From Paenibacillus stellifer (GTDB taxonomy: Bacteria; Bacillota; Bacilli; Paenibacillales; Paenibacillaceae), in the NCBI RefSeq assembly GCF_000758685.1, contig NZ_CP009286.1:2758501-2822500 (forward strand): a DNA stretch of 64,000 bases. The letters run 5' to 3'. The notes under the pieces were generated by a model. The model saw nothing but the letters and a program-made list of their open reading frames with translations. It was not told the origin of the DNA and searched no databases. Of this stretch, positions 10,718-42,009 are shown in pieces (positions within the stretch are counted from its first letter, which is position 1; every line of letters starts with the position of its first letter). Position numbers and translations under genes: made by a program.

Positions 10718-10790
10718 GCGGGGTTAGTGTAATGGATAGCACTCCGGCCGTAAGCGACCGGCAGTGGCGGTTCGAGTCCGCTTCTCCGCT
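10718..10790 (+). tRNA. tRNA-like sequence with an abnormal anticodon arm
   Basis: Seventy-three bases with an acceptor stem GCGGGGT / TCTCCGC (six pairs including one G-T), a D arm GTGTAATGGATAGCAC, and a canonical T arm GGCGG TTCGAGT CCGCT. The anticodon arm is wrong: CCGGC and ACCGG pair over only four bases and enclose eight or more bases (CGTAAGCG) with no clear U33 context. CCA is not encoded. Likely a tRNA pseudogene, an integration-site relic or a tRNA mimic; no amino acid can be assigned. Confidence 0.45.
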
Positions 10791-12344: not shown

Positions 12345-12459
12345 TGGAGCTTTACGAAATCCGCACCCAATCCGCACCCAACTCATGATTTCTTAGAAAA
12401 CAATCCGGAAGTAAAAGGCCGAAAATCCTTGATAATAAAGGGGATATAGACAAAAAATC
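12345..12459. other. right edge of the phage-derived segment
   Basis: No gene. Two copies of ATCCGCACCCA stand side by side near 12359 to 12380. The next recognisable feature downstream is the core gene rsmD, so the boundary of the element lies in about 12345 to 12690. No attachment core can be proven without the left end. Confidence 0.3.
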
Positions 12460-12485
12460 GGGGCCCTCTTTCGAGGACCCCTTTC
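12460..12485 (+). terminator. intrinsic terminator
   Basis: GGGGCCCTC (12460 to 12468) pairs with GAGGACCCC (12473 to 12481) over eight pairs with one mismatch and a TTTC loop, followed by TTTC. It insulates the phage-derived segment from the core operon. Confidence 0.7.
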
Positions 12486-12703
12486 ATGGGAGAGGAGAAA
12501 CCGGACGAAGAGCTTATGGGGAAGCGTAAGCTTGCTTCGCGGTTGTCTACGGCACTTCTCAATGCCGATAATGTAAGGATGGCCCTGTGTTTCCGGTTTT
12601 ATACATCGCTTCGAAACCTTTTTTCATTCACGGCTCGAATGTGGTACTATAGGCGTGAAATGCTGTCGTAATAGACGTAATCAAATACAGAGAAACAGAG
12701 CAG

Positions 12704-27540: not shown

Positions 27541-27891
27541 ATGACTGAGTCGGAATTCGAATGCCAGGAGAAGATTAGAAGATTAGCTGTGAAGATTGTG
27601 AAGCATTACAGAGGCAGAGGGCCCGACAACGTGAAGGTGAGGTTGGAGAATTCTCCGGTTATAACAGTTGAAATTAAGGGGATTCTCTCGAACTTATCCG
27701 AAATTTTAATGGAAGAAGGCGCGGAGAAGCTGGTTGCTGAATACTGGAAAATACTGAAATCCCACTTGGAGAAAGAGTATATGAGCGAATTGAAGGAAGC
27801 GCTCGGCGGCGCTTTTACCTACACATGGAGGATCTTGAATCTATCTCCGGCAGACAGGCGAATTGTGGTGCAGCTGAATACATCGGTTTGA
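27541..27891 (+). CDS. DUF2294 family protein
   Basis: A 116-residue protein matching the DUF2294 pattern: KHYRGRGPDNVKVRLENSPVIT, a LSEILMEEGAEKLV helix, and the ALGGAFTYTWRILNLSPADRRI end. The family has no settled function. It lies 125 bases before fdhA on the same strand with a terminator-like hairpin between, so it may be transcribed separately and feed the fdhA operon by readthrough. Confidence 0.75.
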   Translation: MTESEFECQEKIRRLAVKIVKHYRGRGPDNVKVRLENSPVITVEIKGILSNLSEILMEEGAEKLVAEYWKILKSHLEKEYMSELKEALGGAFTYTWRILNLSPADRRIVVQLNTSV

Positions 27892-28016: not shown

Positions 28017-30176
28017 ATGATTCCATCAATGGTAGACAAAATCTTAACCGTCTGTCCATACTGCGGAAGCGGCTGCAATCTGAACCTGATCGTCGAGGAA
28101 GGAAAGGTCGTAGGCGCTGAGCCGGCGAACGGCAGGACGAATGAAGGTACTTTATGCCTGAAAGGCCATTATGGCTGGGACTTCTTGAATGATCCTAAGA
28201 TTTTGACGGCCCGACTCAGACAGCCCATGATCCGCAAAGAAGGTGAGCTTCGGGAAGCCTCCTGGGAAGAAGCCATTCGCTATACAGCCGATAGACTGCT
28301 GGCGATCAAGGAGAAATACGGCCCGGATGCCATCATGGGAACGGGTTCGGCGAGAGGACCGGGGAATGAGGCCAACTATGTGATGCAGAAGTTCATGCGC
28401 GCCGCCGTCGGCACCAACAACATCGATCACTGTGCCAGAGTCTGCCATGGCCCCTCTGTGGCGGGGCTAAGCTATTCGCTTGGCGACGGTGCCATGTCCA
28501 ATTCGATTCCGGAGATTGAGGATGCCGATCTGCTCCTTATTTTCGGATACAACGCTCCTGTGACCCATCCGATTGTGGCCGGAAGAATCGTAAAAGCGAA
28601 GCAGAAAGGCGCCACAATTATCGTATGCGATCCCCGGAAGACGGAGTCGGCGCGGCTTGCGGATACCTGGCTTCCTCTTAAAGGCGGAACGAATATGGCG
28701 CTTGTCAATGCTTTTGGGCATGTGCTGATCGAGGAGCAGTTATACGATAAGGATTTTGTTGCCAAGCATGTGGAAGGTCTGTCCGAATATATTGAAAATG
28801 TGCGATCGTACACGCCTGAAAATGCGGAGGGCATCACCGGGGTCAAAGCCGCCGATATCCGAAAGGCGATGCGGCAGTACGCCGGATCGAAGAAGGCGAT
28901 GATTCTGTACGGCATGGGAGTATGCCAGTTCTCGCAGGCAGTTGATGTCGTGAAGGGCCTGGCCTCGATAGCTCTCCTGACAGGCAACTTCGGAAGACCC
29001 TCGGTCGGCATCGGGCCGGTCCGTGGTCAGAACAACGTGCAGGGCTCCTGCGACATGGGGGCGCTGCCCAATGTGTATCCGGGTTACCAGCCGGTCACGG
29101 ATGCCAAAGCCCGCGCCAAGTTCGAGAAAGCTTGGGGAGTCAAGCTGCCCGACAAGACGGGGTATCATTTGACGGAAATCCCGCATCTGGTGCTTAAGGA
29201 AGATAAGGTTAAAGCTTATTACATTTTTGGCGAGGATCCGGTGCAGAGCGATCCCAATGCGGCCGAAGTGAGAGAGACGCTGGATAAAATGGAGTTCGTC
29301 GTCGTGCAGGATATTTTCATGAACAAAACAGCGCTGCATGCGGATGTCATTCTGCCGGCCACCTCCTGGGGCGAACATGACGGCGTGTACTCCTCTGCAG
29401 ACCGCGGGTTTCAACGTATCCGAAAAGCTGTGGAGCCGCCGAAGGGAACGAAACCCGATTGGCAGATTATATGCGAGGTTGCTACCGCGATGGGCTATCC
29501 GATGAGCTACAAGTCGACGGAGGAAATCTGGGATGAGATGAGAGGACTATGTCCGAAATTCGCCGGGGCCAGCTATAAAAAGATGGAGGAGCAGGGAAGC
29601 GTTCAATGGCCCTGCCTGACAGAGGATCATCCGGGAACGCCCTACTTGTATGAGGGCAATCGGTTCTCGACGCCGAACGGCAAGGGCCGGCTGTTCGCTT
29701 GCGAATGGAGAGCGCCGCTGGAGCAGCCTGACCGGGATTATCCATTGACTCTCTCTACCGTCCGCGAAGTCGGGCACTATTCCGTCCGCACGATGACAGG
29801 GAACTGCCGGGCATTAAGCCAGCTGTCCGATGAACCCGGGTTTATTCAGATCAGTCCTGAGGACGCCCGGCAATACGGGATTGAGGACGGTCATCTTCTT
29901 AAGGTCATATCGCGCCGCGGAAAAATAACTGCCAGAGCGCAAGTCAGCGAACGGGTTAAGGCCGGCGCGACTTACATGACCTACCACTTCTGGATTGGTG
30001 CTTGCAATGAGCTGACCGTCGATGTCCTCGATCCGATATCGAAGACGCCTGAGTTCAAATACTGCGCGATTCGCTTGGAGAGAATCCATGACCAGCAGCA
30101 GGCCGAGCTTCAGATTCGGGAGCAGTACGAGTCCCTTAGACAGCAAATGCTGGCAGGAGCGGGAGCGCATGAATAA
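28017..30176 (+). CDS. fdhA: formate dehydrogenase catalytic subunit, Cys type (FdhF/HDCR-like)
   Basis: A 719-residue molybdenum or tungsten bis-MGD enzyme interconverting formate and CO2. An N-terminal [4Fe-4S] site is formed by Cys13, Cys16, Cys20 and Cys47 (CPYCGSGC and CLKG). The catalytic metal ligand is Cys143 in DHCARVCHGPSVAGL, where Escherichia coli FdhH has selenocysteine; His144 follows as required. Length equals FdhH (715). The ATG at 28017 follows AAAGGG. It has no twin-arginine signal, so it is cytoplasmic. It overlaps the hycB-like gene by eight bases, opening the formate/hydrogen operon. Confidence 0.95.
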   Translation: MIPSMVDKILTVCPYCGSGCNLNLIVEEGKVVGAEPANGRTNEGTLCLKGHYGWDFLNDPKILTARLRQPMIRKEGELREASWEEAIRYTADRLLAIKEKYGPDAIMGTGSARGPGNEANYVMQKFMRAAVGTNNIDHCARVCHGPSVAGLSYSLGDGAMSNSIPEIEDADLLLIFGYNAPVTHPIVAGRIVKAKQKGATIIVCDPRKTESARLADTWLPLKGGTNMALVNAFGHVLIEEQLYDKDFVAKHVEGLSEYIENVRSYTPENAEGITGVKAADIRKAMRQYAGSKKAMILYGMGVCQFSQAVDVVKGLASIALLTGNFGRPSVGIGPVRGQNNVQGSCDMGALPNVYPGYQPVTDAKARAKFEKAWGVKLPDKTGYHLTEIPHLVLKEDKVKAYYIFGEDPVQSDPNAAEVRETLDKMEFVVVQDIFMNKTALHADVILPATSWGEHDGVYSSADRGFQRIRKAVEPPKGTKPDWQIICEVATAMGYPMSYKSTEEIWDEMRGLCPKFAGASYKKMEEQGSVQWPCLTEDHPGTPYLYEGNRFSTPNGKGRLFACEWRAPLEQPDRDYPLTLSTVREVGHYSVRTMTGNCRALSQLSDEPGFIQISPEDARQYGIEDGHLLKVISRRGKITARAQVSERVKAGATYMTYHFWIGACNELTVDVLDPISKTPEFKYCAIRLERIHDQQQAELQIREQYESLRQQMLAGAGAHE

Positions 30177-30789
30177 CGGTCAGGCCAATTCGTTCGTACT
30201 CGCCGATCCGGAGAAATGTATTGGCTGTAAAGCTTGTGAAGTCGCCTGCTTCGCCGTCCACAACCGGGAGAACGGGGTTGGCGCTGCGGCTGGCACAGTA
30301 AGTGTGCCGGTCATCCCCAGGCTGTATGTAATCCGGACGGACAGCTTCATGATGCCGGTTCAGTGCAGGCATTGCGAGAACGCGCCTTGCGCAGAGGCGT
30401 GTCCGGTAAGCGCGATCCGACAGAAGGACGGGGCGATTCAGGTGGACGAAGCCAGGTGCATCGGCTGTAAATCATGTGCGATTGCCTGTCCTTTTGGCGC
30501 GATCAGTCTGTTCCGGGCTTACAGCGGGGGCTCCGAGTACAAGAATCGGCATCTGAAAAAGCGCCAAGACACTACATTGGAGCGGAAGACGAGAATCATT
30601 GCGTATAAATGTGATTTATGCCGAGGAGCAACACCTCCTGAAGAGCGTGAAGAGTCGGGTGATAAGTCAGGTGATGAGTCGGGAGAGAGAACACCCTGGT
30701 GTGTATCGGTATGTCCCGAAGAGGCGCTAACGCTTATGACTCCCGTTAAGGAAATGAACGCAAGGCTTGCGGCTGTTCGGCGGCTGTGA
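30169..30789 (+). CDS. HycB/HydN-like polyferredoxin subunit 1
   Basis: A 206-residue electron-transfer subunit with cysteine groups for four [4Fe-4S] clusters: CIGCKACEVAC, CRHCENAPCAEACP, CIGCKSCAIACP and CDLC with a late CVSVCP. It would wire formate dehydrogenase to hydrogenase, like HycB3 of hydrogen-dependent CO2 reductase. A hydrophilic insert (EEREESGDKSGDESGER) separates the two halves of the last group and is absent from the second copy. The ATG at 30169 overlaps the fdhA stop; the longer frame from 30022 is rejected. hydA starts 34 bases later. Confidence 0.9.
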   Translation: MNNGQANSFVLADPEKCIGCKACEVACFAVHNRENGVGAAAGTVSVPVIPRLYVIRTDSFMMPVQCRHCENAPCAEACPVSAIRQKDGAIQVDEARCIGCKSCAIACPFGAISLFRAYSGGSEYKNRHLKKRQDTTLERKTRIIAYKCDLCRGATPPEEREESGDKSGDESGERTPWCVSVCPEEALTLMTPVKEMNARLAAVRRL

Positions 30790-30822
30790 CCAATCCATGA
30801 TGAAAAGAAGGGTAATTCCAAT

Positions 30823-32235
30823 ATGCCATCATCCATCGAACCGATCATTCATATCGACCAGGAACTGTGCACCGGCTGCAGACGCTGCGCGACTGTATGC
30901 CCGGTCGATGCTATTATAGGCGAACGGAGAAGTCCTCAATCGGTTGATCCTCAGCGCTGCGTCATTTGCGGACAATGCGTGCAGGTATGCAGCGCTTATG
31001 CTGCGGAAGGCGATTCCAGGCTAACAAGACGCAGCGACAAGCTGCGGGAGAGAGGCCAGCTCTCAAGCGTACATGAGCCTTTATTCGCCGCATATTCAAC
31101 CGGTCATGCGTCTGAACTGCGCGAAGCGCTGGATGATCCAAAACGCTTCAATATCGTGCAGTGCGCACCCGTCATCCGTGTGTCGCTTGCAGAGGAGTTC
31201 GGCATGCCGTTTGGAACGCTGACACCGGGCAAGATGGCCTCAGCCTTAAGACGAGTGGGCTTTGACCGGATCTATGATACCAATTTCGGAGCGGACGTTA
31301 CGATTATGGAGGAGGGTACCGAGCTGATCAGCCGGGTGATGTCCGGGGAGGCACTGCCGATGTTCACCTCCTGCTGCCCGGCCTGGGTGAAGCATGCCGA
31401 GACTGCGGCACCTCATCTCCTGCATCATCTCTCCAGCTGCAAGTCCCCCATGCAGATGGTTGGTGCATTGGCTAAGACCTATGGCGCCAAGGCCGAGGGC
31501 GTCTCTCCGGGTGATATATTCAGCGTGGCGGTCATGCCCTGTACCTGCAAGAAATTCGAATCAAGCCGGGAGGAGATGACGGTTGACGGATACCGTGAGG
31601 TCGATTTGGTCATCACGACAAGAGAACTGGCACAGCTCATCAAGGCTAAAGGCATAGACTTCAACAGCCTGCCCGACGAGCCGTTCGATTCACCGCTTGG
31701 CTTGTATTCGGGTGCGGGAACGATCTTCGGGGCAACAGGAGGTGTAATGGAAGCCGCAATCCGTACCGGATATGAGCTGGTGACGCATGAGGCCCTACCT
31801 GATCTGCAGCTTGAATTTATCAGAGGTGCTGAAGGAATCCGCACGGCGACGGTGCAGCTTGGGGATCTGGAACTGAGAGTCGCCATTGTTGCAGGGCTTA
31901 AATATGTCCACGGCATTCTTGAGCAGGTGTCAAAAGGCGAATGTCCTTATCATTTTATTGAGGTAATGGCATGTCCGGAAGGCTGCGTCAGCGGCGGAGG
32001 CCAGCCGAAGCTGCTGCTGGAGCGAGATCGCACGGCCGCTTATGCGGCCAGAAAAGCATCGATCTATAATCATGATTCCACACTGAAAATACGCAAATCG
32101 CATGAGAATCCGGCCATTATCCAATTGTATAAGGATTATTTGGGCGAGCCGTTAGGCGAGGTGTCCCATCATCTGCTGCATACGAAGTTCAACTCAAGAA
32201 GCCCTAAGTCCAGCGGTATGATGTCAAGTCCCTGA
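30823..32235 (+). CDS. hydA: [FeFe]-hydrogenase catalytic subunit (HydA2-like)
   Basis: A 470-residue soluble hydrogenase. Two N-terminal [4Fe-4S] clusters: Cys16, 19, 22, 26 and Cys46, 49, 52, 56. The H-cluster motifs are complete: L1 MFTSCCPAWVK (Cys184, the likely proton-relay residue Cys185), L2 MPCTCKKFE (Cys240) and L3 MACPEGCVSGGGQP (Cys384, Cys388). L2 has Cys where many enzymes have Ala, and the upstream motif is QCAPVIRV rather than APAVRV. Domain content and size match HydA2 of HDCR, without the longer N-terminal [2Fe-2S] region. Its stop is followed by the IS110 element. Confidence 0.95.
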   Translation: MPSSIEPIIHIDQELCTGCRRCATVCPVDAIIGERRSPQSVDPQRCVICGQCVQVCSAYAAEGDSRLTRRSDKLRERGQLSSVHEPLFAAYSTGHASELREALDDPKRFNIVQCAPVIRVSLAEEFGMPFGTLTPGKMASALRRVGFDRIYDTNFGADVTIMEEGTELISRVMSGEALPMFTSCCPAWVKHAETAAPHLLHHLSSCKSPMQMVGALAKTYGAKAEGVSPGDIFSVAVMPCTCKKFESSREEMTVDGYREVDLVITTRELAQLIKAKGIDFNSLPDEPFDSPLGLYSGAGTIFGATGGVMEAAIRTGYELVTHEALPDLQLEFIRGAEGIRTATVQLGDLELRVAIVAGLKYVHGILEQVSKGECPYHFIEVMACPEGCVSGGGQPKLLLERDRTAAYAARKASIYNHDSTLKIRKSHENPAIIQLYKDYLGEPLGEVSHHLLHTKFNSRSPKSSGMMSSP

Positions 32236-32374
32236 GTTGTGCGAATTGGAAATTTCCCAGGCTCATCAAGGAAGAAGTCACGAAAAAAGGCGCATCGAAA
32301 CAAACCCAGCCGAAAATTCAATCATATACCAGAATTTTACTGGGAATTTGGTGAAGGACTTGGCAAAGAAGGCG

Positions 32375-33619
32375 TTAATTCTTCGCGCTATTCACCTTCC
32401 TTCGAGGCGTATAGAGTTGGCCGTTGCGTAGCAGCACATCGACCAGACGCACGAGTTTTCTTGCCGTTAAGACGAGGGCGCGTTTGTGTTGATTTCTGGG
32501 CACTTCGTTATATTTCTTCCGGTAGTACTCACCGAATTCCTCATCGCGCAATCGAACGGAGTTGGCAGCTTCAACCAGGTAGTAGCGCAGGAATCGATTG
32601 CCGGATTTGATGCGCGCGGTGTGTTCGGCTTCGAAGGCGCCGGACTGATGCTTTCGCCATGTAAGGCCGGCATACTTGGCCACGGCGGCCTGATCCTTGA
32701 ACCGTTCGATGTCGCCGAGTTCACCGAGCAGGCCGGCGGCGTAGACCTTGCCGATGCCGGGCACCGACAGGAGGCACTGCGCGCCCGGGATGCCGTCCAG
32801 AATGCGTTCAATGGCCTTGTCCAGATCCTTGAGTTGCTTCTGGATGCTGCGGATGGACTCGATGGACGTGCCGAGCACAAGGTCAATGGAATCTTCCACG
32901 ACCTTCGACAACCGGTAGGAGGCGCGGGCGGCTTGCTGGATGCAGCGAGCCACACGTTCAGGGTCGGGGAAGCGATTCCGCCCCTTGTCCCGCAGATAGT
33001 CAGCCAGGTCGGTAACATTCATCTCGGCAATGTCATCGAGGCTGAACTTCTCCGAGAGCATTTCCATGAGGGCGTGGCCGAATACTGAACTGTCCACTTC
33101 GGTGGTGAAGGCATTGCACTTGTAGAACAGGTTCTGCAAGAAGTATTGCTTCTCCCGGGCGAGGTTGTGCACCAAGTGGAAACGCATGCGCGTAAGGCGC
33201 TGGAGCGCGATATACTGCTCCTGCATGACGAGGGTGGTCGTCAGGCGGCCGAAGCGAAGGCGATCCGCAATGACCCAGGCATCCAGACGGTCGGTCTTGT
33301 CCATGTCGGCGTAAGCTTCGCGGAACTTGCAGATGAGCTTGGGGTTCAGCGTAAACACCTTGGTCTTGCGCTCACGAAGTGCCGGGTCCTGGTGGAAATA
33401 CATGGCCGGGTGCCAGCTGTAGACGGAAGTGGCCTCAAGGCCGATGTGAATCTCAGATACGGCAAGCTTGTCCGCTGCGACCACGATACGATCGCGAAGG
33501 TGAGAAGCGCCGTGAAGGTTATTCGGGACGGTGAACGATTCGAAGTTGTCGCCGTCCGCGTTCATGAAACACGCTTCGAGCTCTTGGGAGCTCACGTCAA
33601 TTCCGACAAAAAGCTTCAA
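32375..33619 (-). CDS. IS110-family DEDD transposase
   Basis: A 414-residue recombinase. The N-terminal RuvC-like DEDD domain shows KLFVGIDVSSQELEACF (first Asp), IGLEATSVYSW (Glu) and DKTDRLDAWVIADRL (Asp pair). The C-terminal Transposase_20 domain shows LLSVPGIGKVYAAGLLGEL and the catalytic-serine region around KYAGLTWRKHQSGAF. It appears intact. AGGAGGAATTCCCC precedes the ATG. Members of this family are guided by a bridge RNA encoded in a non-coding end of the element. Confidence 0.95.
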   Translation of the reverse strand: MKLFVGIDVSSQELEACFMNADGDNFESFTVPNNLHGASHLRDRIVVAADKLAVSEIHIGLEATSVYSWHPAMYFHQDPALRERKTKVFTLNPKLICKFREAYADMDKTDRLDAWVIADRLRFGRLTTTLVMQEQYIALQRLTRMRFHLVHNLAREKQYFLQNLFYKCNAFTTEVDSSVFGHALMEMLSEKFSLDDIAEMNVTDLADYLRDKGRNRFPDPERVARCIQQAARASYRLSKVVEDSIDLVLGTSIESIRSIQKQLKDLDKAIERILDGIPGAQCLLSVPGIGKVYAAGLLGELGDIERFKDQAAVAKYAGLTWRKHQSGAFEAEHTARIKSGNRFLRYYLVEAANSVRLRDEEFGEYYRKKYNEVPRNQHKRALVLTARKLVRLVDVLLRNGQLYTPRRKVNSAKN

Positions 33620-33639
33620 GGGGAATTCCTCCTTTCATT

Positions 33640-33985
33640 TAGGGATTCAGGGAATGGACGCTCCGGGATGCCTCCGGCGCACGCGCCCAACCTCACCCTC
33701 GCGTATGAGAACACGCTTCGGTCCATGAGCTGCCCTGGGTCTGCTAAAGCCAGGCATGGGCTGCCGAAGGGAACAGCCAGCGGGTAAGAAGTTCGGACGC
33801 GTACCGGAGAAACAGACTTAGGGAGTAGATGAGACTACGGGAGGCGTAAGAATATCCCCGAATGAACCCTAAGATTCATTGTCCAGAAGCACGCCGGAAA
33901 GTCCAGTCCCTGTTCGATGTTCAAGGAGCAAGTGACTGGTAAATCTTCGAGTGGCCGCTAGTCCCCTCTGGGACTGGAAACTAGC
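33640..33985 (-). ncRNA. candidate bridge-RNA region of the IS110 element
   Basis: A gene-free, GC-rich stretch upstream of the transposase start, the position of the bridge RNA in the IS110 subgroup. Structure is visible: CTAGTCCC/GGGACTGG form a tight hairpin at 33958 to 33977, and CCAGTCCC at 33903 to 33910 can pair with the same GGGACTGG, giving two competing folds. The exact RNA ends and guide loops are not determined. Confidence 0.45.
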
Positions 33986-34027
33986 TTATATAAGGCTTTT
34001 GAAAATACTATACGAGGAGGAGTCGAA

Positions 34028-34612
34028 ATGAACAGCTTTGTGCTGGCTGATCCGGGCAAGTGTATCGGATGTCATACTTGCGAGGCGGCTTGTATTGTCG
34101 CTCATTCGGATCAGCGGATCTTTGAAGCGGGTGGCGATGAAGCGGTCTATTACCCGCGCCTGACTGTCGTGGAGACGGAGGATGTGACCGCACCTGTTCA
34201 ATGCAGACACTGTGAGGATGCCCCCTGCGCCAATGTCTGTCCGAATGGATCAATCACGAACAGGGAGCACAGCATTTTTATTAATCAGGATACCTGCATT
34301 GGCTGCAAGACTTGCGCCGTCGTCTGTCCCTATGGAGCTATCACCATGGTTGCCGCCTACAGTAAAGGACGGAAGCAGCTGCAGCGCGGCCTTCGCGTTC
34401 AATCCGGGAATGCCTGGAGCCCGAAGCCAAGAATGGTCGCGAACAAATGCGATCTATGCGAAGATACCGGAGGCGGGCCGGAATGTGTGCGGGTGTGCCC
34501 GACTCATGCGCTGCAGTTCATTGCTTCCCCGCATCTCGATGAGTCGATCGCACGGAAGAGAACGGGTACGGTTCAGATGCTGCAGTCGTATGGAGGATTT
34601 GGCGATTATTAA
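34028..34612 (+). CDS. HycB/HydN-like polyferredoxin subunit 2
   Basis: A 194-residue relative of the subunit at 30169, with four [4Fe-4S] groups: CIGCHTCEAACIVAH, CRHCEDAPCANVCP, CIGCKTCAVVCP and CDLC with CVRVCP. Two different HycB proteins beside one FdhA and one HydA is the subunit composition of HDCR (HycB3 and HycB4). ACGAGGAGGAG precedes the ATG, so translation is strong, but the transcript must pass the IS110 element or start anew near 33990. moaA follows 29 bases later. Confidence 0.92.
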   Translation: MNSFVLADPGKCIGCHTCEAACIVAHSDQRIFEAGGDEAVYYPRLTVVETEDVTAPVQCRHCEDAPCANVCPNGSITNREHSIFINQDTCIGCKTCAVVCPYGAITMVAAYSKGRKQLQRGLRVQSGNAWSPKPRMVANKCDLCEDTGGGPECVRVCPTHALQFIASPHLDESIARKRTGTVQMLQSYGGFGDY

Positions 34613-34641
34613 GACAGCGGGGGTACTAAGCGGAAAGCAAG

Positions 34642-35685
34642 GTGAATGATGTGACCGATCGGCTGGTCGATTCTTTTGGCCGTGTGCATAACTATGTCCG
34701 CATTTCCGTTACGGATCTCTGTAATCTGGGCTGTCAGTACTGCAGACCGGGGAGCGCTCTAAGCTGCAAGGTGAAATCGGAGCTGCTTAGTTTTGACCAA
34801 TTGACAGCGGTTGTTGAAGCTCTGGCTCACATGGGAGTTACGAAGGTTAGGCTGACTGGCGGCGAACCGCTGCTGCGTCCCCGGCTGGAATCGCTAATTG
34901 GAAGATTGAGCGGGATCAAGGGGATCAGCCGAATCGGGTTGACCACGAACGGGATGCTGCTGGGGCCAAGAGCCTCCCTCCTTCGGCAGGCCGGATTAAC
35001 CGACGTAAATATCAGCATCGATTCTCTGGTGCCGGAACGCTATGCCGGAATAACGGGCGGCGGAGATTTCAACAGGGTGATCAAGTCGATTGAAAGCTCC
35101 TGCAAGGCGGGATTTGACAAGGTCAAGCTTAACGTTGTGCTGATGCATGGAGTGAACGATGATGAGATTGAAGCTTTCTTAAAGCTCACGATCAACTATC
35201 CGCTCTTTATCCGCTTCATTGAATACATGCCGATTGGAGACCGGATTCAGGCCTGGAGATCGGAGTATATGCCGGCGGAGAGTATTCTGGCACGTTGTGA
35301 GGAAAAAGGATGGCAGATTGAACCGGTCGGAAACACCGGACAGCTAATCGATTCTCTTCATGGGGAAAATGACATCTCAGGCCCGGCAAGGTACTACCGG
35401 ATCGCTGGGGCAGCGGGGGAGTTCGGATTGATCAGTCCGGTCAGCCGGCATTTCTGCGAGAGCTGCAATCGCCTTAGAATTACAGCGAACGGCTGCGTCA
35501 AGCCATGCCTGTATTGGAACGAGGAATGGGATCTGAAGCCATATATTGATGATGAAGAGAAGCTGCGGCACGTATTTCTGCAGTCGCTGGCGGGCAAGCC
35601 GCTGCGCCATGAAATGACGATCGCTAAGGAAGAGACTTCCTCCAAGCCGCACACGCTGCGCCAAATGTCGCAGATCGGAGGATGA
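34642..35685 (+). CDS. moaA: GTP 3',8-cyclase MoaA
   Basis: A 347-residue radical SAM enzyme for the first step of molybdenum cofactor synthesis. The N-terminal cluster motif is CNLGCQYC (about residues 27 to 34). The C-terminal second cluster is FCESCNRLRI with a later CVKPCLY, and the essential Gly-Gly end is present (MSQIGG). Starts are GTG 34642 or GTG 34651; AAGGTG favours the latter. Its place inside the formate operon fits a dedicated cofactor supply for fdhA. aspA starts eight bases later. Confidence 0.93.
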   Translation: MNDVTDRLVDSFGRVHNYVRISVTDLCNLGCQYCRPGSALSCKVKSELLSFDQLTAVVEALAHMGVTKVRLTGGEPLLRPRLESLIGRLSGIKGISRIGLTTNGMLLGPRASLLRQAGLTDVNISIDSLVPERYAGITGGGDFNRVIKSIESSCKAGFDKVKLNVVLMHGVNDDEIEAFLKLTINYPLFIRFIEYMPIGDRIQAWRSEYMPAESILARCEEKGWQIEPVGNTGQLIDSLHGENDISGPARYYRIAGAAGEFGLISPVSRHFCESCNRLRITANGCVKPCLYWNEEWDLKPYIDDEEKLRHVFLQSLAGKPLRHEMTIAKEETSSKPHTLRQMSQIGG

Positions 35686-35692
35686 TGCGCAC

Positions 35693-37210
35693 ATGAGCGA
35701 AATGAACGGCGTGAACAACATGGATGACATGGATTACATTAACGAAATTAACGACATCAACGACATCAACGACATGATCGAGATAAGCGGGGAATCATTG
35801 TTCCGTATGGAGCAAGACGCTTTAGGCTCCGCTGCCGTGCCGAAAGACGCCTATTACGGTATTCATACCTTAAGGGCCAAAGACAACTTTCCAATCAGCG
35901 GCCGGCCGGTCAACCGCCGGATCATTGAGGCGCTGCTGCTTGTCAAGAAAGCTGCTGCCACAGTGAACGGCAAGCTCGGATTTTTGGCGGCATCCGTCTC
36001 AAGCGGAATTCAAATCGCCTGCGATGAGCTGTTGTCAGGCGAGCTGGATGACCAGTTCGTGACAGACGCTTATCAGGGCGGGGCTGGGACGAGTACCAAT
36101 ATGAATGTGAATGAGGTGATCGCCAACCTCGCGATTGAGCATCTGGGAGGGACCAAGGGCGATTATCGGCTTATTCATCCGATCGATCACGTCAATCTTC
36201 ACCAATCGACAAATGATGTGTATCCGACCGCGCTCCGGATTGCGGCAATCCCGCTGCTGCGGACGCTAAGCGGGCAGATGGCGCTGTTGCAGGAAGGGCT
36301 TCAGGCGAAGGAAAAGGAATTCGCCGACATCGTAAGGCTTGGACGGACTCAGCTGATGGACGCGCTGCCGATTATGGCCGGCCAGAGCTTCGGCGCATAC
36401 GCAAAAGCGGCCGCGCGGGACCGCTGGCGGCTCTATAAGGCGGAGGAACGGCTGCGCGAAATCAATCTCGGCGGGACGGCGGTAGGAACCGGCATGAATG
36501 CCCCGCCAGGTTATGTGTACGCAGTTGCCGAAGAGCTTCGGGAAATAAGCGGTCTCGGATTAAGCCGCAGCGATTTCCCTATGGATGTTACACAAAATAT
36601 GGATGTGTTCGTTGAGGTATCCGGGCTGCTCAAAGCTGCCGCCGTGAATCTTCTAAAGATTTCGGGCGACTTCAGGCTGCTGAACTCCGGTCCGGACGGA
36701 GGGATCGGTGAATACAAGCTCCCTCCTGTACAAGCAGGTTCCTCCATCATGCCCGGCAAGGTCAATCCCGTCATCGCTGAGATGATAGGGAGTGTCTCTA
36801 TGAGAGTTATAGCCAATGATACGGCCATAACGCTTGCTGCGGCATCCGGACAGTTGGAGCTGAATGCGTTCATTCCGTTGATCGCCGAGTCGCTGCTGGA
36901 ATCGCTGGAGCTGATGATCCATGCCGTGCCGGTTTTTCATGAACGCTGTGTTGGGGGACTTAAGCTGGATAGGGAACGATGCAGCGATCATCTGGAGCGC
37001 TGTGGTGTAATGGCTGCCGCCGCCGTGCCATATATCGGATACGATGCGGCAGCTGAACTGCACAAGGAAGCTGCGGCAACGGGCAGGACGTTTGCCGATC
37101 TGCTGGAGGAACGGGGGTTAATGACGGAGATGCAGGGCTCTGCGGCTATTCAGCAGCTTCGATCAGTTCAAGCGGGCATTCCAGGGCATACAGAACGAGA
37201 CCCATTATAA
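35693..37210 (+). CDS. aspA: aspartate ammonia-lyase-like enzyme, hydrogenase-cluster type
   Basis: A 505-residue fumarase/aspartase superfamily protein. The signature GSSIMPGKVNPV and the YYGIHTLRAKDNFPISG start of the aspartase core are clear. An unusual N-terminal extension of about 40 residues is built from repeated Asn/Asp/Ile units (NEINDINDIND), encoded by a short tandem repeat at about 35735 to 35775. An aspA-like gene beside hydE, hydF and hydG is known in other [FeFe]-hydrogenase clusters, where it may supply ammonia or fumarate during H-cluster assembly. Its stop overlaps the hydF start by one base. Confidence 0.9.
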   Translation: MSEMNGVNNMDDMDYINEINDINDINDMIEISGESLFRMEQDALGSAAVPKDAYYGIHTLRAKDNFPISGRPVNRRIIEALLLVKKAAATVNGKLGFLAASVSSGIQIACDELLSGELDDQFVTDAYQGGAGTSTNMNVNEVIANLAIEHLGGTKGDYRLIHPIDHVNLHQSTNDVYPTALRIAAIPLLRTLSGQMALLQEGLQAKEKEFADIVRLGRTQLMDALPIMAGQSFGAYAKAAARDRWRLYKAEERLREINLGGTAVGTGMNAPPGYVYAVAEELREISGLGLSRSDFPMDVTQNMDVFVEVSGLLKAAAVNLLKISGDFRLLNSGPDGGIGEYKLPPVQAGSSIMPGKVNPVIAEMIGSVSMRVIANDTAITLAAASGQLELNAFIPLIAESLLESLELMIHAVPVFHERCVGGLKLDRERCSDHLERCGVMAAAAVPYIGYDAAAELHKEAAATGRTFADLLEERGLMTEMQGSAAIQQLRSVQAGIPGHTERDPL

Positions 37211-38487
37211 TGAAGGAAGCGGAAGGGCGAAGTCCGATGAATATGAACAGCACTCCCCGGGGAGAGCGGCCGCATATCGCTGTATTCGGCCGGTGCAATG
37301 CCGGCAAATCCAGCATCATCAATGCGCTCGCCGGACAGAGCATTTCTATTGTCTCTCAAGTAAGCGGAACAACGACCGATCCGGTCTATCATCCAATGGA
37401 GCTGCTGCCGGCGGGACCTGTCGTACTGATTGATACGGCGGGATTGGACGATACGGGGGATTTGGGGGCGCAGCGAGTCCGCCGTACAAAATCGATTTTG
37501 GATCGAACCGATTTGGCGCTGCTGGTTGTCGATGCCGAGAGTGAGTCCTGGGAATTCGAACAGGAATTGATGAAGACACTAACTGACAAGGGAACTCCGG
37601 TAATCGTACTGCTCAACAAGACCGATCTGCTGGAAGGGGAAAGCGCCGGGGCGGCGGCAATTTTGGCAGCCGCGGGCGTCGCAGCCCAGCTTGGCACACC
37701 CCCGGTACCGCTCAGTGCTTCGAATGGCGAAGGCATCGGGGAACTGAAGAAGAGAATGATATCGGTGTTATCGTCGGAAGAAGACCGGTACCGGATAGTA
37801 GGCGACCTGCTTCAACCCGGAGATACGGCGGTTCTGGTCATTCCCATCGACAAAGCGGCGCCCAAGGGACGCCTTATCCTCCCGCAGCAGCAGACGATAC
37901 GCGATATCCTGGAATGCGATGCTAGCGCTGTTGTCACGAAAGAACAAGAGCTGCGCCATACGCTCGATTGTCTCGGTAAGAAGCCTAACCTTGTCATAAC
38001 AGACTCCCAGGCATTCCTGAAGGCCGAAGCGGATACGCCAAGGGATGTGCCGCTTACTTCATTCTCGATCTTGTTCGCCCGCTATAAGGGCGACCTTCCC
38101 AGCCTGGTCGGCGGAGTCAAGACGATCGCCCGGCTGCGGGACGGCGACAAAGTGCTTATCGCGGAAGCTTGCAGTCATCACCGGCAGTCCGACGATATCG
38201 GCACTGTCAAAATCCCCCGCTGGCTGAGAGAGAAGACCGGGAAGCAGCTTGCGATTGAGCATGCTGCGGGCCATGATTTCCCTGCGGATCTTGAGCAGTA
38301 CGCTCTGATTATTCATTGCGGCGCATGTATGCTGAACCGCAGGGCGATGCAGGGGCGGATCGCAGAAGCGCAGGCTGCGGGCGTACCAATAGTGAATTAC
38401 GGTGTGTTAATTGCTTATGTTCAGGGAGTGTTTCCAAGGGCAATTGAAATGTTCCCCTCCGCGATGATGGCATGGGAGCAGGGATAA
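37210..38487 (+). CDS. hydF: [FeFe]-hydrogenase maturation GTPase HydF
   Basis: A 425-residue scaffold on which the two-iron part of the H-cluster is assembled before transfer to HydA. The GTPase domain has HIAVFGRCNAGKSSIINAL (P-loop), TTTDPVY, DTAGLDDTGD and LNKTDLL. The C-terminal cluster-binding motif is present as CSHH (about 318) and HCGAC (about 373). It shares a TAATGA overlap with aspA. The operon ends at the bidirectional terminator at 38524. Confidence 0.95.
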   Translation: MKEAEGRSPMNMNSTPRGERPHIAVFGRCNAGKSSIINALAGQSISIVSQVSGTTTDPVYHPMELLPAGPVVLIDTAGLDDTGDLGAQRVRRTKSILDRTDLALLVVDAESESWEFEQELMKTLTDKGTPVIVLLNKTDLLEGESAGAAAILAAAGVAAQLGTPPVPLSASNGEGIGELKKRMISVLSSEEDRYRIVGDLLQPGDTAVLVIPIDKAAPKGRLILPQQQTIRDILECDASAVVTKEQELRHTLDCLGKKPNLVITDSQAFLKAEADTPRDVPLTSFSILFARYKGDLPSLVGGVKTIARLRDGDKVLIAEACSHHRQSDDIGTVKIPRWLREKTGKQLAIEHAAGHDFPADLEQYALIIHCGACMLNRRAMQGRIAEAQAAGVPIVNYGVLIAYVQGVFPRAIEMFPSAMMAWEQG

Positions 38488-38523
38488 TACTTGCGGATTT
38501 GCTTTGGACCAACGCGGTTCACC

Positions 38524-38573
38524 AAAAGGGACGTGCCCGATGCTGTGCATATACAGCGGGGAACGTCCCTTTT
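38524..38573. terminator. bidirectional terminator between hydF and hydG
   Basis: AAAAGGGACGT (38524 to 38534) pairs with ACGTCCCTTTT (38563 to 38573), with an inner GCTGT/ACAGC stem. The A and T flanks suit both strands. It serves the convergent fdhA-to-hydF and fdhD-hydE-hydG transcripts. Confidence 0.85.
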
Positions 38574-38614
38574 GCTCATATCCGTATACGTATACTCGTA
38601 AAACCGTACAAAAT

Positions 38615-40030
38615 CTAGAACCGGAGATCCCGTTCCCCTGCCTCGATCCGCCGCAGCTGCTTGATTGTGGCTTGTCTAACGGATTCCAGAGGAATGCGTT
38701 CGAGGTTGTCGCGAATCAGCTGCTCCCCGATGGAGCGGGTCTCCTCGTCCGCATAGTCCAGCAGGAACTCTTTGAAGGTCATGAGAGAATTCGGCTGGCA
38801 TACATTATGAATTTGTCCGGATTTGGCCAGCTGCATGAAGCGGTCGCCGGTTCGTCCTTCCCGGTAGCATGCAGTGCAGTAGCTGGGAACGTAGCCGTCG
38901 CGGCAAAGCGTCTGAATAATCTCCATAGGAGACCGGTGGTCGCCGACCTCGAACTGGGGCTTGTCGTTCCGGTTCTTGTTGACGCTGTAGGCGCCGACGC
39001 CTGTAGCAGAACCCGCACTGATCTGCGAAATGCCGAGCTTGATAATTTGATCGCGGAATACCGTGTCCTCTCTTGTGGAGAGGATCATTCCCGTATAAGG
39101 CACGGCGATCCGCAGAACGGCAACGATTTTGGCAAAATCATGATCGCTTACAAGGTAGGGGTAGCTGTCCAGGCTGACATTTTCGGCTTCACGAAGACGG
39201 GGGACCGAGATCGTGTGGGGACCGCAGCCGAAGGCCTGCTCCAGATGCCCAGCGTGCAGCAGCATGGCGATCGTCTCGTATTTATAATCATACAGGCCGT
39301 ACAGGACGCCGATGCCAACATCGTCGATTCCGCCCTCCATTGCACGGTCCATGGCGGTCGTATGCCAGTCATAATCGCTCTTCGGTCCTTGTGGATGATA
39401 ATTGCGATAGGTGGGGCGGTGATAGGTTTCCTGGAATAAAATGTAGGTTCCAATTCCGGCCTCGGCAAGCCGCCGATAATCATCTACGGTGGTGGCCGCG
39501 ATGTTCACGTTGACCCTCCGGATACTTCCATTGCCCGAAGTCGTCGCGTAAATCGTCCGGATACACTCCAGAATGTAATCGATGGAGCAGTTCACCGGGT
39601 CCTCGCCCGCTTCAATCACAAGGCGTTTGTGACCCATAGCCTGCAGCGCCGTTGCCTCCAGTGCAATCTCCTCCTGGCTAAGCCGGGTGCGGATGAAGTC
39701 TGAATTGGAATGCTTGTAGCCGCAGTAGACACAGTTGTTGACACAGTGGTTGCTGACATATAAAGGGGCGAACAAAACAATCCGGTTCCCGTATATCCGC
39801 TCCTTGATTTCCCTTGAGATCCGGAATACTTGTTCAAGCGTGTCCGGGTCCTCAATATTCAGCAGCACAGCCGCCTCGTAAGCGGTCAGCCCTTTGGCTT
39901 CCCTGCCCTTGCTCAGAATCGAGTCGATAAGCTCCCGGTCACTGACCCCGTTCTCCCCATATCTTATAGCTTCCCGAATAACATCGTCCTGAATAAAATC
40001 AGCACGGTTAATCTTCTTAAGCTTGTTCAC
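38615..40030 (-). CDS. hydG: [FeFe]-hydrogenase maturase HydG (tyrosine lyase)
   Basis: A 471-residue radical SAM enzyme that splits tyrosine to make the CO and cyanide ligands of the H-cluster. The SAM cluster motif is CVNNCVYCGY (about residues 96 to 105). The C-terminal second cluster motif begins CTACYREGRTGDRFM, with a third Cys about 22 residues on in HNVCQPNS. Length is typical. It lies 55 bases after hydE on the same strand. Confidence 0.96.
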   Translation of the reverse strand: MNKLKKINRADFIQDDVIREAIRYGENGVSDRELIDSILSKGREAKGLTAYEAAVLLNIEDPDTLEQVFRISREIKERIYGNRIVLFAPLYVSNHCVNNCVYCGYKHSNSDFIRTRLSQEEIALEATALQAMGHKRLVIEAGEDPVNCSIDYILECIRTIYATTSGNGSIRRVNVNIAATTVDDYRRLAEAGIGTYILFQETYHRPTYRNYHPQGPKSDYDWHTTAMDRAMEGGIDDVGIGVLYGLYDYKYETIAMLLHAGHLEQAFGCGPHTISVPRLREAENVSLDSYPYLVSDHDFAKIVAVLRIAVPYTGMILSTREDTVFRDQIIKLGISQISAGSATGVGAYSVNKNRNDKPQFEVGDHRSPMEIIQTLCRDGYVPSYCTACYREGRTGDRFMQLAKSGQIHNVCQPNSLMTFKEFLLDYADEETRSIGEQLIRDNLERIPLESVRQATIKQLRRIEAGERDLRF

Positions 40031-40085
40031 GGCTATTCACTTCTTTCATGGGTTTGGAATTTCTTCACTTGCATCTTCAATCCGG

Positions 40086-41135
40086 CTAAACATGAGGATG
40101 CGTTGAACGGTTTATCCGCTTCAGACTGTCGCCTCGTCCCATATCCATATCAAATCCCGCCTCACGGATTCGCAGCTCCAGACAGAACCTGCATTGAGCC
40201 GATTCGTCTCCGGTGCAGATTTTGCCGTTATATAGCGTATATTTCGGCCGGACCGCTACGGGAGACAGATTCGGCATCACAACATTGGCGCCGGCTTGCA
40301 GCGCAAGCTCGCGTCCGTACGGGTGAGCGGTGCCCATGGCGGTTGTAGCAGGGATGAGGGCGCCGGGTATTATAAGCCTGGTCAGCGCAATCATATCGAG
40401 CGTCGTCTCCAGAGAGCCTGCGGGCTCATGCCTAAGCGGGGTTCCCTCATGCGGAATAAAAGGGCCGATGCCGATCATGTCCGGGTCCAGCTCCTGCAAA
40501 TACAGCAGATCCTCGGCCAAGTCCTCCAGGCTCTGACCGGGCAGCCCGACCATGAATCCGGCCCCGACTTGGTAACCGATCTCCTTGAGCGCGCGCAGGC
40601 GGTCCCGGCGGTTGTCGAAGGTCATGGTCGGGTGCAGGCTTTGGTACAAGCTGGCGGATGCCGTTTCATGTCTGAGCAAAAAGCGGTCCGCTCCCGCCTG
40701 GAACAGCCGCGTATAGCATTCGTTATCCCGCTCTCCGATCGAGAGCGTAACTGCGGCGTCCGGACATTTTCGCTTGATTTCCATTATTAAAGACACCAGC
40801 ATGTCGGTCGTGTACCAGTCGTCTTCACCGCTCTGCAGAACAAAGGTCCGGTAGCCAAGCTCATACCCTTCCTTGCAGCACTCCAAAATTTCATCCGGAT
40901 GAAGCCGGTAGCGCTGTGCCCTCCGGTTAGAGGAACGTATCCCGCAGTACATACAGTTTTGTTTGCAAATATTTGAGAATTCGATCAGTCCCCGCACGTA
41001 GACGCCGAGGCCGTACATTTCCCGCCTTTTACGGCCGGCTGTGGCACGAAGGGCCGCTCGAAGCTCCTGATCCTGTTCCAGCCTGCCCAGGAGAGCGACT
41101 AATTCTTCACGATTCCAATATCCCTGTTCGTACAA
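40086..41135 (-). CDS. hydE: [FeFe]-hydrogenase maturase HydE
   Basis: A 349-residue radical SAM enzyme acting on the HydG-made iron synthon during H-cluster assembly. The SAM cluster motif is CKQNCMYCGIR (about residues 57 to 67). The LQSGEDDWYTTDML and FMVGLPGQSLEDLAEDL segments are typical. The only usable start in frame is TTG at 41135, with no ribosome binding site. The AAGGAG at the fdhD end lies 35 bases upstream, so translation probably depends on coupling to fdhD, or an unusual codon upstream is used. Confidence 0.95.
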   Translation of the reverse strand: MYEQGYWNREELVALLGRLEQDQELRAALRATAGRKRREMYGLGVYVRGLIEFSNICKQNCMYCGIRSSNRRAQRYRLHPDEILECCKEGYELGYRTFVLQSGEDDWYTTDMLVSLIMEIKRKCPDAAVTLSIGERDNECYTRLFQAGADRFLLRHETASASLYQSLHPTMTFDNRRDRLRALKEIGYQVGAGFMVGLPGQSLEDLAEDLLYLQELDPDMIGIGPFIPHEGTPLRHEPAGSLETTLDMIALTRLIIPGALIPATTAMGTAHPYGRELALQAGANVVMPNLSPVAVRPKYTLYNGKICTGDESAQCRFCLELRIREAGFDMDMGRGDSLKRINRSTHPHV

Positions 41136-41163
41136 GCGATTGATCAGCTGATCCGTTTGTTTC

Positions 41164-42009
41164 TCACTCCTTCAATAGATTGTTAAGCCGAGCTGTCATG
41201 ACCTGGGCCGGCTCACAATCGGTAATGCGTTCCGCCCCGGTATACACATTGCATGAGTCCTGGCGTATGAATCCGACCGTCGTCATGTTGAGCTGCCTTG
41301 CAAGCTCCAGCGCAAGCGCCGTAGGCGCCGATTTGGATAAAATGATTTCGCAGCCGATCTTGGCTGCCTTCAGCAGAATTTCCGAGGAGATTCGGCCGGT
41401 GAACGCGATGATTTTGTCGCTTAGAACCATCTGCCGCCTCAGGCAGTGGCCGTATATTTTATCAAGAGCATTGTGACGCCCGATGTCGCACCTGGCCAGT
41501 ACAATATCCCGGGAATCGCATACCGCTGCGGAATGTACCCCGCCTGTCCGATGGAACAGCTCCGAGCCGTCCTGCATTTTGTCCATAAGCCGAAAGATAT
41601 CCGCAAAGGATAGGGATACGTGAATCCCGTCTTTGATTTTGGCCGTACGGGCATCATTGACATAGACGTAACCCAGGCGTCCGCCGCCGCAGCATGAGGT
41701 GCTGTAGCGCTTCGCATACAGTGACCGTTGAAGGTCGTTCCAGCGGTCTGTGGAGACGTGGATATAGCCCTCGTCCTCCTGAATCCACAAGTCGCGGATG
41801 TCGCCGGCTTCCCGTATGATCCCTTCAGAAGCCAGAAAGCCAACGGCCAGATCCTCCAGATATTCGGGCGTGCATACCAGCGTAACAAACTCCTCGCCGT
41901 TAATGACCAGTGTGACCGGTCGCTCCGTAACGATTGAATCCTGTTCATAAGTGATGCTGCCCTGCCTATAACGAATAACCGGTTCCTGACATTCCGTCTG
42001 CAGCTTCAT
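41164..42009 (-). CDS. fdhD: formate dehydrogenase accessory sulfurtransferase FdhD
   Basis: A 281-residue protein that passes sulfur from cysteine desulfurase to the bis-MGD cofactor of formate dehydrogenase. The sulfur-carrying cysteines are in YSTSCCGGGRLG (about residue 111). The TGGVHSAAVCD and DIGRHNALDKI motifs are intact. It heads the minus-strand operon fdhD-hydE-hydG and so ties formate dehydrogenase and hydrogenase maturation together. GAGGTGACGG precedes the ATG. A TTGACA lies upstream at about 42090 on the minus strand. Confidence 0.95.
   Translation of the reverse strand: MKLQTECQEPVIRYRQGSITYEQDSIVTERPVTLVINGEEFVTLVCTPEYLEDLAVGFLASEGIIREAGDIRDLWIQEDEGYIHVSTDRWNDLQRSLYAKRYSTSCCGGGRLGYVYVNDARTAKIKDGIHVSLSFADIFRLMDKMQDGSELFHRTGGVHSAAVCDSRDIVLARCDIGRHNALDKIYGHCLRRQMVLSDKIIAFTGRISSEILLKAAKIGCEIILSKSAPTALALELARQLNMTTVGFIRQDSCNVYTGAERITDCEPAQVMTARLNNLLKE

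Follow-up and report, generated by a model that had tools for sequence, protein, structure and literature searches.

A 64,000-nucleotide stretch of the Paenibacillus stellifer genome (contig NZ_CP009286.1, positions 2,758,501 to 2,822,500; hereafter the window, which sits in a one-contig genome of 5,658,798 bases) carries, between 27.5 and 42.0 kb, a block of genes that very likely encodes a soluble complex of the hydrogen-dependent CO2 reductase (HDCR) type, serving most likely as a formate-hydrogen lyase (FHL), with a gene order that has been cut in this strain by an insertion element of the IS110 family. A soluble HDCR/FHL-like complex is supported by sequence comparison, by a tree of its hydrogenase subunit and by the gene set, and the formation of the complex, its reaction and the direction of that reaction are predicted by analogy with relatives. 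The IS110 element, which the original prediction overlooked, is the most novel part of the locus, and is treated here at corresponding length.

On the plus strand the block comprises an MpsC/DUF2294-like gene, fdhA, hycB, hydA, the IS110 element, a second hycB, moaA, aspA and hydF; on the minus strand it comprises hydG, hydE and fdhD. The catalytic and electron-transferring subunits are a Cys-type molybdopterin formate dehydrogenase (fdhA/fdhF, 28017-30176, plus strand; TIGR01591, 911 bits, cut-off 666; frame open from 27972, with candidate ATG starts at 28017 or 28029), a HycB4-like four-cluster ferredoxin (30169-30789, plus), a HydA2-type [FeFe] hydrogenase (hydA, 30823-32235, plus) and a HycB3-like four-cluster ferredoxin (34028-34612, plus). 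The accessory genes are moaA (34642-35685, plus; TIGR02666, 338 bits, cut-off 284), an aspA-like aspartate ammonia-lyase gene (35693-37210, plus), hydF (37210-38487, plus; TIGR03918, 560 bits, cut-off 326), hydG (38615-40030, minus; TIGR03955, 700 bits, cut-off 312), hydE (40086-41135, minus; TIGR03956, 477 bits, cut-off 255) and fdhD (41164-42009, minus; TIGR00129, 227 bits, cut-off 141). All ten are uninterrupted open frames, and FdhA, MoaA, HydF, HydG, HydE and FdhD exceed curated NCBIfam equivalog cut-offs; AspA passes that of a subfamily (NF008909, 619 bits, cut-off 510) and stays below that of the aspA equivalog (TIGR00839, 503 vs 681 bits). The inventory of ten genes first drawn up from the sequence thus stands, except that it also passed over the MpsC-like gene upstream of fdhA, and the cassette can be called 'complete' with regard to its genes but not as an operon, because the IS110 element splits hydA from hycB3-moaA-aspA-hydF.

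Compared with all solved structures, HydA matches the HydA2 of Thermoanaerobacter kivui with 704 bits, the next family reaching only 386 bits, and the two proteins are 64% identical, with residues 6-459 aligned gap-free. Two N-terminal ferredoxin-type Cys motifs precede TSCCPAW, MPCTCK and MACPEGC, in agreement with the initial description of a two-cluster [FeFe] hydrogenase with full H-cluster motifs. In a tree of 71 rows, rooted at its midpoint and flagged by the program for long branches meeting, 20 Paenibacillus rows of the HDCR type lie on one side of a branch (100/100), and a 38-row HDCR-like set (100/99) brings together Paenibacillus, other Bacillota, two sulfate-reducer rows and T. kivui; the T. 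kivui protein falls into the same 30-row subset as the window HydA at a weakly supported node (84/82). A second HydA type, represented by 20 rows from other Paenibacillus (L051-L070 in our numbering of compared loci), forms a separate group (100/100), and its frame length (584-639 amino acids in 19 of 20 frames, 469 in one) suggests a bifurcating or NADH-linked enzyme. Grouping with bifurcating enzymes, which the original prediction had named as the outcome that would speak against it, was therefore not found, and the possibility that the window HydA represents the genus's other HydA type is ruled out by the tree and by the 704 vs 386 bits. By score and by tree, HydA is best classified as an HDCR HydA2.

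The two HycB subunits are distinct proteins, as had been proposed, each carrying four [4Fe-4S] cluster motifs (16 conserved Cys per alignment). The first scores 213 bits with T. kivui HycB4 and 123 with HycB3; the second scores 164 and 144 bits, respectively, and its C-terminal tail, which aligns to T. kivui, is covered only by the HycB3 alignment. The first HycB and HydA have T. kivui HDCR subunits as their best solved relatives, and the second HycB scores best on HycB4/HycB3. In HDCR, the C-terminal helices of HycB3 and HycB4 build filaments, as reported second-hand in PMC10413684. AlphaFold models bearing on these helices have low confidence (mean pLDDT, the predicted local distance difference test, 48.7 and 55.7) and were set aside as too uncertain for use as evidence. 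As a separate observation, hycB4 contains a charged, length-variable insert ahead of the last cluster motif (30622-30699), which L002-L005, L008 and L010 share, L006 and L007 have in a short form, and L013, L016 and the non-Paenibacillus rows lack. FdhA, finally, has a Cys where Escherichia coli FdhH has selenocysteine (X in PDB 1aa6), in keeping with its designation as Cys-type. It is 67-75% identical to its counterparts in other Bacillota loci with this gene set, and only 45-46% identical in L025, L033 and the second set of Clostridium magnum, whose locus L020 has two HDCR-type gene sets in one stretch (FdhA 74% vs 46% identical to that of the window).

How might these proteins work together? 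Formate would be oxidised to CO2 at the molybdenum site of FdhA, the electrons would pass through the clusters of the HycB3-like and HycB4-like polyferredoxins to the H-cluster, and H2 would be formed at the H-cluster of HydA, the reverse reaction being also expected. HydE, HydF and HydG would build the H-cluster, for the bridge of which AspA would be a source of ammonia, and MoaA and FdhD, whose families have roles in the molybdenum cofactor, would serve that cofactor. In the cell, the complex would most likely remove formate made by pyruvate-formate lyase, acting as FHL. In this strain, with IS110 in the ribosome-binding site of hycB3, the genes hycB3-moaA-aspA-hydF may be expressed separately from fdhA-hycB4-hydA, or poorly.

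This assignment draws on the rest of the genome. A single PF02906 match makes the cassette HydA the sole [FeFe] hydrogenase found, and of three PF00384 matches only FdhA exceeds the formate dehydrogenase equivalog cut-off of 666 bits (the other two reach 525 and 318 bits, the 525-bit protein being C-terminally cut by the stretch compared). The NiFe hydrogenase large subunit (PF00374) has no match in the genome, which rules out a membrane-bound FHL of the E. coli type. Neither has CdhC of the carbon monoxide dehydrogenase/acetyl-CoA synthase complex, which argues against service in acetogenesis, although other Wood-Ljungdahl genes were not searched for. Because pyruvate-formate lyase is present and no CdhC was found, the reaction would probably run in vivo towards formate removal. 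Pyruvate-formate lyase is, however, carried by 98 of 100 same-genus genomes, and a formate source alone therefore does not explain which species keep the cluster.

The proposal has precedents. A 2018 review (PMC6288185) describes many Paenibacillus with putative HDCR clusters, proposes that they do the job of formate hydrogenlyase, and refers to cell-free P. polymyxa extracts that evolve H2 from formate; the main claim of the original prediction is therefore sound but not new. The legend of a figure in the same review notes that the drawing omits transposases and other genes by which some clusters are disrupted, and its section on Paenibacillus clusters, which concerns the same genus and the same FHL-like role, gives no strain-level detail of an MpsC-like gene or an IS110 target. 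Clostridium beijerinckii, a non-acetogen, offers a parallel through the literature rather than through sequence: its CbFdh/Hyd (FdhF, HydA, HycB1 and HycB2) consists of the same subunit types and is reported to show 12 U/mg of FHL and 10 U/mg of HDCR activity in vitro (PMC12905484, 2026). With the T. kivui HDCR (PDB 7qv7) the window system shares the four subunit types, including a colinear HydA and counterparts of HycB4 and HycB3. It differs in its FdhH-like FdhA, in the insert ahead of the last HycB4 cluster and the different HycB4 tail, in a gene order cut by IS110, in having the H-cluster maturation genes in the same block, and in a genome without a CdhC match, which by that test does not belong to an acetogen. 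E. coli formate hydrogenlyase (FdhH, HycB and Hyd-3) catalyses the same net reaction and contains the closest solved relative of FdhA, but the window genome has no NiFe hydrogenase and its FdhA has Cys instead of selenocysteine.

The nearest named locus found is that of Paenibacillus sinensis (L002, the same as L078; HydA 93% identical), against which the cassette genes show dN/dS ratios (nonsynonymous to synonymous divergence) of 0.06-0.17. Paenibacillus loci repeatedly show fdhA-hycB-hydA-hycB in this order, as do several loci from other Bacillota, some with fdhD in between, and in L002, L005 and L006 the cluster is flanked by rnc and smc. In seven relatives (L003-L009) the gap between the matched ends of HydA and HycB3 is only 11-38 nt; among the compared loci, an IS110 match between hydA and hycB3 occurs only in the window and in P. 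sinensis. The MpsC/DUF2294-like gene (27541-27891, plus; 116 amino acids; PF10057, 30.3 bits, cut-off 23) also belongs to this neighbourhood: 18 of 19 named Paenibacillus loci have it ahead of fdhA (the exception, L014, starts inside hycB4), and it likewise precedes fdhA in C. thailandense (L012) and in all 16 loci L071-L086, at least 7 of which come from the same genomes as named loci. Genus-wide, copies of PF10057 occur in 72 of 100 genomes, with five matches in the P. stellifer genome itself, and the MpsC-like gene of the cluster is therefore regarded as one diverged paralogue that accompanies it.

The insertion element occupies 32209-34016, its ends being defined by copies in the genome and in relatives, and it lies in the Shine-Dalgarno sequence of hycB3. 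It carries an open frame of 414 amino acids for a DEDD transposase on the minus strand (32375-33619), whose Pfam domains DEDD_Tnp_IS110 (PF01548, 98.6 bits) and Transposase_20 (PF02371, 79.1 bits) place it in the IS110 family; no transposase relatives could be confirmed in viral contigs, where the 14-base right-end pattern, too short for specificity, matched at least 120 stretches. The element is found at four further places in the genome, full-length with 100, 100 and 99% identity and over part of its length with 97%. Four of the five copies share the left end, TAAG followed by TCCAGCGG, which the partial copy lacks, and all five share the right end ACTATACGAG, followed by GAGG and, 11-12 nt on, by ATG. 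The empty site would accordingly read TA-AG-GAGG, i.e. a Shine-Dalgarno sequence, with AG as the shared core (CT on the transposase strand). In the cassette, the insertion left GAGGAGG ahead of hycB3 and replaced the C-terminus of HydA, the last eight codons and stop of which fall in IS110 sequence (...SRSPKSSGMMSSP, compared with, for example, ...SRSAKEELS in L005). The P. sinensis element occupies the same site and lacks two stretches. Over 283 codons of the transposase the synonymous divergence (dS) between the two species is 0.074, as opposed to 0.30-0.70 in the flanking genes; parallel insertion or exchange between copies is for this reason likelier than one old event, and a single ancestral insertion common to both species is unlikely.

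Several of the observations weigh against the proposed complex or its function. FdhA is nearer to E. coli FdhH, its best solved match (996 bits), than to the FdhF of T. kivui HDCR (718 bits). The variable HycB4 tail is short in the window, with 23 residues past the last CP motif as compared by eye with 32 in C. thailandense and 30 in L004, though the latter shows that other Paenibacillus vary and hence that a short tail is not a trait of the genus. The IS110 element interrupts the cassette between hydA and hycB3, a stretch (32235-34028) in which no plus-strand sigma70-like site was found, and the HDCR-type HydA occurs together with nifH in 29 of 39 genomes, which would be compatible with a role in H2 uptake. 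FdhA and HydA, each with a HycB, might instead be two independent enzymes sharing only ferredoxin; the low confidence of the structure models would allow this, but the recurrence of the four-gene order across loci and the biochemical results on these subunit types, from T. kivui and, as reported in PMC12905484, from C. beijerinckii, make it very improbable. The insertion itself raises the question of whether the cassette is being silenced in this strain, IS110 uncoupling hycB3-moaA-aspA-hydF from the promoter so that the hydrogenase could neither mature nor assemble. Silencing would fit the size of the element (about 1.8 kb), the antisense orientation of its transposase and the lack of a promoter-like site in the plus-strand consensus scan. 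It would also fit the low dS of the transposase, which means that the downstream genes may have acquired their low dN/dS before the insertion. The sigma70 consensus scan, with 6 sites in the region vs a shuffle mean of 10.7, is evidence neither way. However, the downstream frames are open, GAGGAGG has been retained ahead of hycB3, and P. sinensis, with an insertion at the same site, retains HycB3, MoaA, AspA and HydF at 87-91% identity, so that silencing appears unlikely.

The main rival concerns direction: in nifH-bearing paenibacilli the complex might mainly take up H2 released by nitrogenase and recycle it into formate, i.e. run in the HDCR direction. Of 394 family genomes, 74 have nifH over the cut-off and 39 (that of the window included) an HDCR-type HydA, called at E below 1e-180 with 66-100% identity. 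Besides the overlap of 29 genomes given above, any [FeFe] hydrogenase match (E to 1e-60) is found in 53 of the 74 nifH-positive Paenibacillaceae genomes vs 17 of the 320 nifH-negative ones, kinship being ignored in these counts, and the P. stellifer genome combines four nifH matches over the cut-off with the lack of a NiFe hydrogenase. Resolved by genus, nifH accompanies the HDCR-type HydA in all 17 genomes of g1, in 4 of 5 of g3 and in 8 of 17 of g5. Because the remaining 9 genomes of g5 lack nifH over the cut-off, the cluster evidently persists without it, and strict dependence on nitrogenase is ruled out by 10 such genomes (the tenth in g3) out of 39. Moreover, either trait occurs in only 3 of 19 genera, relatedness is uncontrolled, and HDCR and nitrogenase are both O2-sensitive, so that a shared anaerobic habit could yield the same pattern. 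In addition, HDCR is found in each of the 7 same-genus genomes that have a NiFe hydrogenase, and is therefore no replacement for an uptake hydrogenase. Taken together, a role mainly in H2 uptake seems rather doubtful, and disposal of formate by a soluble FHL is the preferred interpretation.

What might direct the element to the hycB3 ribosome-binding site? Upstream of the window transposase lies a noncoding region that folds better than shuffles (z -3.5) and holds a bridge-RNA-like target loop, recognised by sequence only (33817-33850, minus), in which two arms surround a hairpin: CUUACGCCUCCC, hairpin GUAGUCUCAUCUAC and UCCCUAAG, with TAAGGAGG as the candidate target site. It is likely that this IS110 lineage, seen in Paenibacillus, Alicyclobacillus, Anoxybacillus, Bacillus, Priestia and Cytobacillus, has a bridge RNA whose guide resembles an anti-Shine-Dalgarno sequence (CCUCC, CUCCU or variants). 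It would thus insert into the ribosome-binding sites of genes, and a purine-rich remnant resembling a Shine-Dalgarno sequence would stay ahead of the downstream start codon; the guide would co-vary with the particular ribosome-binding site, the kind of target remaining constant.

This proposal rests on 18 elements: the five in the P. stellifer genome, that of P. sinensis at the window site (L002), one 75% identical element from the same-genus genome G029 (L096), and 11 from plasmids of Alicyclobacillus, Anoxybacillus, Bacillus, Priestia and Cytobacillus. The plasmid places were hand-picked, 2 among the best 25 of 409 records and 9 among the best 40 of 414, leaving out Enterococcus records (384 of the 414), Lactococcus and lactobacilli, and some have like surroundings (L225 and L229 have the same flank; L227 and L230 lie before a similar gene). 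An ATG or TTG (the latter in L228 and L231) stands 11-12 nt beyond the right end in all 18, and a scripted check found a start codon within 3-14 nt opening a frame of at least 30 codons in 16, L096 and L228 failing. By chance, this loose criterion is satisfied at 19-22% of random window positions and at 21-26% of positions after GAG, whereas the tight one (ATG at 11-12 nt, 30 open codons) holds after GAG at 43 of 1,944 positions, a figure derived from the window rather than from the plasmids. At 9 of the 11 plasmid places (all but L226 and L228) an annotated gene begins at precisely that codon. The left-flank TAAG is seen in the P. stellifer copies that have a left end, in L002 and in L096; several plasmid elements share only AG.

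With the arms of the loop named by the IS621 scheme (PMC11208160), the 5' arm agrees with its own target at a mean of 8.1 of 12 positions, as compared with 6.3 for shuffled pairings, and none of 20,000 shuffles scored as high; this comparison comprised 16 of the 18 elements (without L002 and L229), which are not independent, several having one guide, and CT was assigned as the two core letters in every target. Some sequences had been looked at before the loop was defined, and the other arm was compared by eye. L225/L229 match their own target at only 3 of 12 positions, all other elements at 7 or more, and guides recur in their own target as UCAUCUCCU in L101, CCUCUCCCU in L223, UCGCCCCU in L224 and CCUGCCCCU in L228 (the last two letters being the core); the last letter of window-type guides is C, as opposed to T in the core. 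The element resembles IS621 and other IS110 members with a bridge RNA or seekRNA, as described in PMC11208160 and PMC11187229, in its DEDD transposase, in the two-sided target loop within a structured noncoding region and in the CT core on the transposase strand. By contrast, its target appears to be the ribosome-binding site of genes, while that of IS621 is given there as repetitive extragenic palindromic (REP) elements. Among the papers listed by literature searches, judged by titles and abstract openings with supplementary files excluded, none was found to report IS110, IS1111, IS621, a bridge RNA or a seekRNA targeting a Shine-Dalgarno sequence, ribosome-binding site or start codon.

Elsewhere in the window there are a ylbH leader RNA at 12450-12542 (Rfam RF00516, 56.5 bits) and a tRNA gene at 10718-10790, for which ARAGORN gives no anticodon and the Rfam tRNA model 38 bits.

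The cassette provides a well-bounded, strain-level example of the HDCR type in a genome that bears nifH and pyruvate-formate lyase and has no CdhC match, and the insertion within it demonstrates that a full set of genes may conceal a disrupted operon. Should the proposed targeting hold true, this IS110 lineage would represent a naturally occurring RNA-guided recombinase whose target is a functional site that precedes many genes, and homing to ribosome-binding sites would explain both how the element can spread without breaking most frames and why it occupies the same place in two species.

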